Source of the DNA: Epichloe hybrida
Taxonomy: Eukaryota > Ascomycota > Sordariomycetes > Hypocreales > Clavicipitaceae
Reading direction: 5' to 3'
Assembly: GCA_019022495.1 (NCBI GenBank)
Contig: JAFEKR010000008.1
Span: 1,922,001 to 1,986,000 of the forward strand
Length of the DNA stretch: 64,000 nucleotides
Shown piece after piece: positions 24,301-50,686 of the stretch (position 1 is the stretch's first letter; every line of letters starts with the position of its first letter). The notes under the pieces are model-generated. The model was not told where the DNA came from. It searched no databases and worked only from the letters and a program-made list of their open reading frames with translations. Both the position numbers and the translations under genes were made by a program.

Positions 24301-24851
24301 TGCATGCTTCGTCTTCTTATACAACCTTGCCCAGCCTGCTCCCCAGCATGGGCATGGGAACCATCGATCCTCTGGATATGCATAGCAACCATGCTGCCAT
24401 TCAAGGCCCGCTCGTCGACCCGACGCTTCTTCTTGAAAATCACCATCAATCAGGATTCGCGTCCGCGTACCCTCTCATGGAGTACCCTGTCACGTTGCCA
24501 TCCTTGTCTCAAGTTCAATTCCCCCAACAGGAGCAGCTACAGCAGCAGCAACAATATCAGCAGCAGCAGCAACAACAGTACCAGCAACAGCAGCAACAAT
24601 ATCAGCAGCAGCAGCAGCAATACCAGCATCAATACCAACATCAATACCAGCAGCCGCAGCAGCAGCAGCAGCAACAGCAACAAGCATCTGGAACAACGCC
24701 GTTGCAGACCTATGACGGGGTAGAATTGCCCATGAGTTTCGATTTCCAAAACGAGATGCCTCCAGTCGCCGAGTCCGAAAAATCACATCATAGTGACAGT
24801 GATGCCGAAGGCGAATATGTGGATTTTCAAGATCCTTTTTGGCCACGATAG
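21342..24851 (+). CDS. cysteine-rich CX2CX6C-repeat protein with acidic and poly-Q regions, function unknown
   Basis: I do not recognise this protein as a named family. Exons 21342-22026, 22132-23076 and 23359-24851 give 1040 residues in frame. Residues 60-112 are almost wholly acidic. Residues 116-435 hold many CX2C pairs, at 116/119, 147/150, 190/193, 212/215, 247/250 and later. Three of these are CX2CX6C units: 303/306/313, 377/380/387 and 416/419/426. The last is continued by CX5CX2C (432, 435), reproducing the first five cysteines of a fungal Zn(II)2Cys6 cluster. The C-terminal third is disordered, with basic patches (RRPRPRPSRRR), acidic runs and poly-Gln at about 934-985. A nuclear zinc-binding regulator is a reasonable inference, unproven. 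The ATG was chosen because upstream in-frame sequence is the pyrimidine-rich leader. A tandem duplication disturbs the exon 2 donor region. Confidence 0.75.
22904..23274 (+). repeat. recent tandem duplication across an exon-intron boundary
   Basis: Copy 1 (22904-23100, 197 bp) and copy 2 (23101-23274, 174 bp) abut directly. They look identical by eye except that 24 bp of copy 1 (about 22954-22977) is replaced by a single A in copy 2. Each copy contains the last coding bases of exon 2 and the GTTAGT splice donor. The gene therefore has two identical donors, at 23077 and 23251. Confidence 0.92.
24531..24684 (+). repeat. CAG/CAA tract coding poly-Gln
   Basis: Mixed CAG and CAA triplets broken by Tyr and His codons. 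They lie in frame in exon 3 of the cysteine-rich gene and code a poly-Gln region. Mixed codons suggest moderate stability of length. Confidence 0.9.
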
Positions 24852-33242: not shown

Positions 33243-33611
33243 GGGTGCTGGACAGATGACTCTTTACCGAGAGATGGGAGTTTGTGGGAGTTGGCAACGG
33301 GATATACATGTGCAAAAGAAGACTTTGCGTTCTGCTGATGGCCGTGACACAATGACAATTACACAATGACAATTACACAATGACAATTACACAATGACAA
33401 TTACACAATTTTAACAAAGCGTTGAGCTCGAACCAGCAGCAGCTCTGGACATGTGGGGCAGCCAGGTCGGTCTACTAATAACGGCGACGTAATCGTAATC
33501 GTCATTCATTAGTCTTTGTTGGGGGCGTCCAACTTCATCCAGGACGCCATTTCGAGGCCTTTCGACATTTCTCTGTCAAGCTTGATCGGAAAGCTCTTCC
33601 TTCTCTTCACA
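33243..33611. promoter_or_regulatory. divergent promoter with 14-bp tandem repeat
   Basis: Head-to-head spacer between the MoaB/Mog-type gene and the GMF gene. It contains four perfect copies of a 14-bp unit (ACACAATGACAATT) at 33347-33402 plus a partial fifth to 33410. Effect on transcription is unknown. Confidence 0.6.
33347..33410. repeat. 14-bp tandem repeat, 4.5 copies
   Basis: Four exact consecutive copies of ACACAATGACAATT followed by ACACAATT. The lack of divergence suggests recent expansion. Confidence 0.95.
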
Positions 33612-50132: not shown

Positions 50133-50569
50133 TCAACAGGTTTCATCACAAACGCTGCCATCCGGGATTTTACCTTGATCTCTGTTGCAGCAAAACTGGA
50201 GCCCTATGCAATTGAATTAGGATATCGCAGTTTTTGTCAGGGATTCTCCCGGAACATACCGTCACGAATCTTCAATGGTCCATCTGTACAATTAAATTAG
50301 ATATATACCGCAGTTTTTGTCAAGGATTTTCCCGGGACATACCGCCAGCAATCTCCTCACCATCTGTGTAATTGAATTAGCTATGTATATCACAGTTTTT
50401 TTTTTTTTTGTCTCAGCTTCTCCCGGAACATACTGCTACGAATCTTCAATGGTGCATCTCGTGTATTTATCTTTGGAAGCTTCGATCTTCCAAGTTGTGG
50501 CGCAGCGACGGCAATGGAGAGAAGCGATAGACCAGCAAAGGCCGCAGAGAAAAGCTTGGCAGAATGCAT
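50133..50569 (-). CDS. small secreted cysteine-containing protein built from tandem mini-exons
   Basis: Not a family I recognise. Four exons (50569-50434, 50363-50343, 50283-50260, 50203-50133) encode 83 residues. The N-terminus MHSAKLFSAAFAGLSLLSIA followed by VAAPQ is a textbook signal peptide. The last exon ends in FCCNRDQGKIPDGSVCDETC, four cysteines that could form two disulfides. Exons 2 and 3 are 21 and 24 nt, all introns are phase 1, and introns (70, 59, 56 bp) share GTATGTNCCGGGA donors, CTAATT branch sites and YAG ends. The 3' end of exon 1 (APLKIRS) and exon 3 (GPLKIRD) code the same peptide; exon 2 has diverged (NGEEIAG). So the gene grew by duplicating an exon-plus-intron unit of about 80 bp. 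A TATAAAA box lies 111 bp upstream. Effector-like or host-interaction function is inference only. Confidence 0.72.
50207..50459 (-). repeat. three diverged tandem copies of an exon-intron unit (about 80 bp)
   Basis: Units at about 50459-50368, 50367-50288 and 50287-50209. Intronic blocks (donor, ACAAAAACTG, CTAATTYAATT) are better conserved than exonic ones. The first unit carries an A14 run in its intron, which makes it longer. Confidence 0.88.
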
Positions 50570-50582
50570 TTCTTCCGAGGGA

Positions 50583-50668
50583 GGTAAGTCAGATGAGGTC
50601 AAGGTAAGTCAGATGGTCAAGGTAAGTCAGATGGTCAAGGTAGGTCAGATGGGCTCAAGGTAAGGCGA
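50583..50668 (-). repeat. 18-bp tandem repeat, about five copies, in the secreted-protein leader
   Basis: On the minus strand the unit is CTTGACCATCTGACTTAC with small variations, placed between the TATA box and the ATG. On the plus strand it reads as repeated GGTAAGTCAGATGGTCAA. Confidence 0.9.
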
Positions 50669-50679
50669 CCGGAGGCTGG

Positions 50680-50686
50680 TTTTATA
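50680..50686 (-). promoter_or_regulatory. TATA box of the small secreted protein gene
   Basis: TATAAAA on the minus strand, 111 bp before the ATG at 50569. The 18-bp array lies between the two, so it is probably largely in the transcribed leader. Confidence 0.55.

Follow-up and report, generated by a model that had tools for sequence, protein, structure and literature searches.

The window analysed here, a stretch of 64,000 nucleotides (nt) from Epichloe hybrida (contig C135 of a 79.86-Mb genome in 156 contigs), carries at 50569-50133 of its minus strand a small gene for a predicted secreted peptide, built from short repeated units of exon and intron. Read from the DNA, the gene is open from ATG to TGA once three introns are removed (exons of 136, 21, 24 and 71 nt; introns of 70, 59 and 56 nt, all in phase 1), and the spliced product (P0001) has 83 residues: MHSAKLFSAAFAGLSLLSIAVAAPQLGRSKLPKINTRDAPLKIRSNGEEIAGDGPLKIRDGLQFCCNRDQGKIPDGSVCDETC. 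Exon 1 (50434..50569; the parts of the gene given here and below all lie on the minus strand) encodes the signal peptide MHSAKLFSAAFAGLSLLSIAVAA, followed by PQLGRSKLPKINTRDAPLKIRS. Intron 1 (50364..50433) has the form GTATGT...CTAATT...CACAG with a run of 14 A inside, and is followed by mini-exon 2 (50343..50363), which encodes GEEIAG plus a split codon and ends without an Arg. Then come intron 2 (50284..50342), mini-exon 3 (50260..50283; GPLKIRD plus a split codon), intron 3 (50204..50259) and the last exon (50133..50203, including the stop), which encodes LQFCCNRDQGKIPDGSVCDETC with Cys at residues 65, 66, 79 and 83. A first-pass annotation had described this layout, and its coordinates, exon sizes, three phase-1 introns, GTATGT(T/C)CCGGGA donors, CTAATT sites and APLKIR/GPLKIR repeat all stand.

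The last 24 nt of exon 1 form a further module, one that no intron precedes. It is identical to exon 3 at 20/24 positions (z 8.5 against shuffles) and is joined to the leader exactly at the expected intron position. This fused module could reflect a clean loss of an intron; alternatively, the exon-1 tail may have been duplicated in tandem together with intron 1, giving rise to mini-exon 3. The two sequences are compatible with either course. In the latter, the AG-AT shared by exon 1 and the acceptor would have been used.

A second version of the gene is found in the same genome on four contigs (C65, C82, C17 and C144). Compared over tens of kb, these stretches agree at 99.8-100% for most of their length, with breaks towards some ends; the simplest reading is a single locus that the assembly repeats, true duplication being the alternative. 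All four show collinearity with the window. The closest long pieces match at 94.4% (2.8 kb, on the side of a flanking DnaJ gene) and 91.9% (3.7 kb, on the other side), and the next ones outward at 93.7% and 94.7%, with pieces in and around the peptide gene at 77-86%. The DnaJ gene is present once on C135 and in four further copies at 97%, and no third homoeologue was found, this gene being restricted to the same five places. Collinearity and the copy pattern of the DnaJ gene together indicate that the genome is that of a hybrid Epichloe and that the two versions of the peptide gene are homoeologues. The homoeologue has exons of 115, 24, 21, 27, 27 and 69 nt and introns of 56, 61, 56, 58 and 65 nt. 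The predicted product of this five-intron model is identical over 72/72 residues to C2857_007426 of E. festucae Fl1 (P0002), a protein predicted independently and in agreement with the splicing rules of the homoeologue; this parent was thus E. festucae or something very close. In the last exon of the homoeologue (L003:2011-2079), the Cys frame is open and keeps the four Cys, out of register with the annotated frame.

Database searches with P0001 returned two Epichloe proteins and no other relatives: P0002 (E = 7.3e-11, 87% over 46% of the query) and EsDP_00002138 of E. bromicola (P0003; E = 5.0e-8, 43% over the whole query). A profile of the three proteins, with 176 candidates scored, returned P0002 and P0003 alone, and residues 24-104 of P0003 retrieved only P0003 itself. 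Read by eye, the signal peptide, with its hydrophobic core and AVAA end, is kept in all three proteins. P0003 also shares the GSVCDETC ending encoded by the last exon of the window gene, and its middle is longer and different. No Pfam family matched the window protein at E up to 10, and the two matches in PDB (E 0.4 and 0.97) are not meaningful.

The two homoeologues follow the same rules with different numbers of units: two mini-exons in the window gene, four (24, 21, 27 and 27 nt) in the homoeologue. Their length is a multiple of three in 6/6 cases; for independent exons the chance of this would be (1/3)^6, or about 0.001, but duplicates are not independent. Each of the eight introns is in phase 1 and none has a length that is a multiple of three; CTAATT is present in 8/8 and GTATGT in 7/8, the other having GTATTT. 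The distance from the branch A to the intron end is 13 nt in 7/8 and 21 nt in the last. Between the homoeologues, cassette turnover has thus changed the number of modules without a frameshift. This bears out the earlier proposal that units of exon plus intron duplicate, stay multiples of three between phase-1 introns and vary in number.

The introns of the window gene have donor, CTAATT and acceptor in common and are 80-88% identical to each other at aligned sites. This likeness is not due to chance: in all 21 comparisons between the seven units with a mini-exon, counted over both genes and pairing each mini-exon with its downstream intron, 0/500 shuffles reached the intron score (z 8.6-15.9), and the homoeologue repeats the design. 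The introns also seem to be confined to these loci. A 17-mer pattern from the acceptor side, with at most one mismatch, has 19 matches in the genome, 19/19 of them in these genes, and 14 of the 15 matches of a mid-intron 16-mer pattern are there too. The fifteenth, an exact match on C24 with neither donor nor branch site nearby, was taken as chance. Intron-like matches of the two patterns in the hybrid genome are thus at these loci only, and whole-gene DNA searches of the genome, among the best candidates scored, found the same loci only. These results indicate that there is no dispersed introner within reach of such searches. Mean aligned identity is 0.85 among the introns of the window gene, 0.92 among those of the homoeologue and 0.85 between the genes, so that the window introns are about equally distant from each other and from the homoeologue introns. 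Overall, introns have more in common within a gene than across the two genes, a split that ranks 1 of 56 labelings. That introns group by gene indicates that the units were turned over separately in each lineage, and the homoeologue array reads as the younger or more homogenised one.

We then compared the divergence of exons and introns by their identity at aligned sites. Introns are more alike than mini-exons in 9/9 pairs within genes and in 20/21 pairs overall; against shuffles, introns are alike in 21/21 pairs and exons (p < 0.05) in 16/21. When three disjoint adjacent pairs were picked for independence, leaving gaps uncounted, the differences amounted to 14/64 in exons and 19/169 in introns (Fisher p = 0.056). 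Mini-exons therefore likely change faster than introns, as had been claimed, although the trend weakens in the disjoint pairs. The related statement that exon 2 had diverged and its flanking introns had not is right as to exon 2, which differs from the other two copies by 16-26% plus 3 nt of length, and overstated as to the introns, which themselves differ from one another by 12-20% at aligned sites.

Whether this reflects diversifying selection on the peptide, as the first-pass annotation suggested, is another matter. As a yardstick we used five flanking genes, in which 261/2459 synonymous sites have changed (10.6%; two overlapping pieces of one gene were matched, so that about 19 codons count double), with synonymous rates (dS) of 0.10-0.16 and non-synonymous rates (dN) of 0.011-0.048. 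Exon 1 shows no excess over this yardstick (10/111 changed, p = 0.75), its dN/dS is below 1 (0.078/0.145), and 23 codons of the signal-peptide exon give a dN of 0.041 and a dS of 0.054. The 20-codon Cys stretch has changed more: 16/60 sites differ (p = 5e-4 against the yardstick), including 11/49 non-synonymous sites (p = 0.017), and the four Cys are kept. Its dN/dS is 0.27/0.67 = 0.4, in a test clouded by the homoeologue, where this frame does not coincide with the annotated reading frame. Given the p of 0.056 and values of dN/dS below 1 in both exon 1 and the Cys domain, diversifying selection is suggested but not shown.

The peptides encoded by the modules carry candidate protease sites. 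The motif [LIV]xxR holds 10 of the 14 Arg that follow residue 23 in the three proteins, against a mean of 2.76 in 20,000 shuffles. The sites are INTR, LKIR and LKIR in the window protein, VETR, IVAR and ITVR in the homoeologue, and LHAR, VLPR, INTR and IDTR in E. bromicola; the strict form LxxR accounts for 3 of the 10. Kex2 pro-domain-processed (K2PP) effectors are marked by an expanded site of the LxxR type, located after a signal peptide and a disordered pro-domain, and by cleavage by Kex2; given the enrichment of [LIV]xxR, the three proteins are possible candidates for this class. Their sites resemble the expanded motif described for Kex2, in which P1 is Arg, P4 is aliphatic and P2 may be Thr, Pro, Glu, Ile or Arg (PMC8528282). 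P2 is Thr, Pro or Ile, and so within that list, in 7/10 sites. By this rule, putative Kex2-like sites of the window gene lie in exon 1 (INTR|D, 50459..50470), at the end of exon 1 (LKIR|S, 50438..50449) and at the end of mini-exon 3 (LKIR|D, 50264..50275). In the two genes for which DNA is at hand, the Arg of the motif is the last or next-to-last whole codon in 5/8 exons that precede an intron. The residue next to each E. bromicola site is Asp or Gly, which is also the case at the known junctions, and introns are predicted there (after HAR-D, LPR-D, NTR-D and DTR-G). This link between [LIV]xxR sites and module ends is new in this analysis; the first-pass annotation missed it, together with the fused module of exon 1 and the homoeologue.

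Taking the sequence evidence together, we think it somewhat probable that this is a single secreted-peptide gene with a cassette-built, Kex2-processed pro-region, which would have about one cut site per module and free a peptide with four Cys. The parts of this reading differ in strength. The gene structure is nearly certain, Kex2-type processing is what we infer from the motif, and action in the grass apoplast is a guess from lifestyle. A cassette consists of one mini-exon of 21-27 nt between phase-1 introns and one intron of 56-70 nt, and the near-copy introns could provide the homology for unequal crossing-over. Tandem duplication, loss and homogenisation of cassettes alter the number of modules with the frame intact, as the comparison of the two homoeologues shows. 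In each intact module, [LIV]xxR stands at the end, and the next residue, at the exon junction, is acidic or small. Since the cut site is placed at this junction, gain or loss of a cassette would amount to gain or loss of one linker peptide with its own cut site. A Kex2-type protease of the secretory pathway would cut after the Arg, shed the short linkers and release the C-terminal peptide of about 23-24 residues. The site of action of this peptide would be extracellular, probably the apoplast of the grass. More speculatively, it is possible, though we would not count on it, that introns sit at the cut sites of the precursor, so that exon, intron, released peptide and cut site make up one cassette; introns held similar by concerted evolution, and providing homology for unequal crossing-over, together with changing exons would then maintain a lineage-specific, recombining library of peptides in a symbiont.

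Several observations weigh against this reading. The p of about 1e-4 for the motif is optimistic, because [LIV]xxR was chosen with the sequences in view and the sites have a common ancestry. Arg is missing from three of the eight exon ends, those of exon 2 in the window gene and of exons 3 and 4 in the homoeologue. At P3, one site of E. bromicola carries Asp, described as unfavourable in that position (PMC8528282), and the exon boundaries of E. bromicola are guessed from the protein. By eye, dibasic KR or RR sites number 0 in the pro-regions of P0001, P0002 and P0003. IQ-TREE recovers the same split of introns by gene with a support of only 49. Finally, the frame of the homoeologue and of Fl1 stops one codon past the last intron, a model that yields no Cys domain; the homoeologue lineage may make only linkers, or may use another last junction.

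Some of these points would fit mini-exons that are a flexible spacer of no specific use, turned over by slippage or unequal crossing-over, in which the Arg are remnants of the repeat and only the signal peptide and the Cys domain matter. The exon ends that lack Arg, dN/dS below 1 wherever sequences can be aligned and the lack of excess change in exon 1 are in line with this. Yet the Arg of [LIV]xxR are kept in all three proteins although the peptides between them have diverged, and 6/6 mini-exons have remained stop-free multiples of three when intron lengths vary without that limit; we consider a mere spacer unlikely, if by no means negligible. The frame-safe units also bring to mind a precursor diversified by exon skipping, as in the micro-exon genes of schistosomes. 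Any mini-exon could be skipped without harm to the frame, donors and acceptors are similar in all units, and the precedent exists (PMC4350168), which makes several isoforms conceivable, if in our view improbable. In fungi, introns as short as these are mostly recognised by intron definition, with retention commoner than skipping, which speaks against skipping here. Retention, for its part, would break the frame, since the length of 0/8 introns is a multiple of three.

The array might also be a decaying or non-coding tandem repeat taken for a gene, given the displaced Cys frame of the homoeologue and the poor conservation of the intergenic stretch around the gene (77-86%, against 92-95% further out). 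We regard this as very improbable: the signal-peptide exon, with the dN and dS given above, is open in three species, all mini-exons are multiples of three, and the gene is predicted in both Fl1 and E. bromicola. Near-copy introns are a mark of introner-like elements in fungi (PMC4457414), and a mobile intron may have inserted repeatedly into a repeat-peptide gene whose exon similarity is older and separate. This deserves very little credence, since the acceptor and mid-intron matches are in this gene, save the one that no intron surrounds, and since the adjacent exon was duplicated too (exon-1 tail and exon 3). An introner-like element was rejected because near-identical introns in many unrelated genes were not found by the pattern and whole-gene searches of the genome. 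Hardly credible at all is a GigA-related precursor of ribosomal cyclic peptides such as dikaritins or epichloecyclins, even if genus, secretion, repeat modules and Kex2-type sites are shared. The gene has neither KR/RR sites nor near-identical repeats, and of the 43 matches to UstYa (PF11807) in the genome 0 are on C135, the nearest on a homoeologue contig being about 595 kb off, with 0/7 among the neighbouring open reading frames (ORFs). With no UstYa gene near, a dikaritin/epichloecyclin cluster was rejected.

The favoured reading, a cassette-built and Kex2-processed precursor, has partial counterparts among known systems. The bicycle genes and KQY/KHI cassette effectors of aphids, expressed at the host interface, have a conserved signal peptide, many tiny internal exons and a fast-evolving product (PMC9168663, PMC7495047). 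Nearly all internal exons of bicycle/KQY genes start at codon position 2, i.e., follow phase-1 introns, as here. In contrast, they are insect genes of tens of kb, with far more exons and with introns that are long (in KQY1a, 180-5168 bp); near-copy introns are not reported in the available parts of PMC9168663 and PMC7495047, and the likeness meant here is one of architecture. The micro-exon genes of schistosomes likewise encode secreted proteins from very small symmetrical exons that can be skipped safely (PMC4350168), an architecture also found in our two genes (6/6 mini-exons of 21-27 nt, 8/8 introns in phase 1), but they belong to an animal parasite and their alternative splicing is documented (PMC4350168). 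Kex2-processed repeat proteins (KEPs), including GigA of Epichloe, are secreted precursors with repeated modules between probable Kex2-type sites (PMC7329392, PMC6339444, PMC8528282). Here, unlike in KEPs, the repeats are not near-identical (only APLKIR/GPLKIR repeats in the window gene, the other modules having diverged), [LIV]xxR takes the place of the KR/RR absent from all three pro-regions, and an intron stands at each module border; neither the word intron nor the word exon appears in the main text of either KEP survey (PMC7329392, PMC6339444).

Among proteins of fungal symbionts, the SP7-like effectors of arbuscular mycorrhizal fungi also have a signal peptide, a variable number of imperfect hydrophilic repeats and a conserved intron as a family mark; they differ by a single conserved intron before the first repeat and by nuclear localisation, and the available text mentions no Cys domain (PMC11333574). 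SspN of E. festucae is likewise small and secreted, with variable short repeats and a putative kexin site, but has 7.5 almost perfect repeats of 15 residues and one intron, and is cysteine-poor (PMC6374014). In the AGL genes of Rhizophagus, a comparison of orthologues finds introns better conserved than the repeats that encode the mature protein, as is likely here, but there is a single intron and the repeats lie within one exon (PMC8786786). No fungal gene of this layout, nor any mention of either locus tag, was found in the open-access literature, subscription papers and preprints being beyond reach. If the favoured reading is true, this gene would be a fungal counterpart of the aphid and schistosome mini-exon effector genes in a genetically tractable mutualist, in which a change of unit number can already be seen between two homoeologues in one nucleus. 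Exon borders tied to protease sites would then offer a concrete reason for keeping mini-exons between phase-1 introns. Such genes are easily mis-annotated, given their tiny exons and drifting C-terminal frame.

Upstream of the gene, a TATAAA on the minus strand (50681..50686), about 110 nt from the ATG and retained in the upstream alignment with the homoeologue, is what we infer to be a promoter element. Between it and the ATG lies a tandem array of about 4.4 copies of 18 nt (50582..50664, minus strand). The homoeologue has a much shorter, different stretch in its place, which suggests that the leader too gains or loses repeats. An RNA-family scan of the window gave a tRNA only, and a scan for bacterial promoters, of a type not applicable to a fungus, was empty. 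Elsewhere in the genome, matches to UstYa (PF11807) form clusters with several per site (C101 at ~112-123 kb, C68 at ~732-743 kb, C1 at ~3.24 Mb and C113 at ~3.02 Mb), possibly cyclic-peptide clusters of this endophyte. Among the 33 tandem-repeat rows of the window, none but that of the peptide gene has a period exceeding 45. The window also holds a long CAG/CAA tract at 24525-24683, which encodes a glutamine run in an ORF of 477 codons, and a perfect minisatellite of 14 nt in 4.5 copies at 33347-33409.
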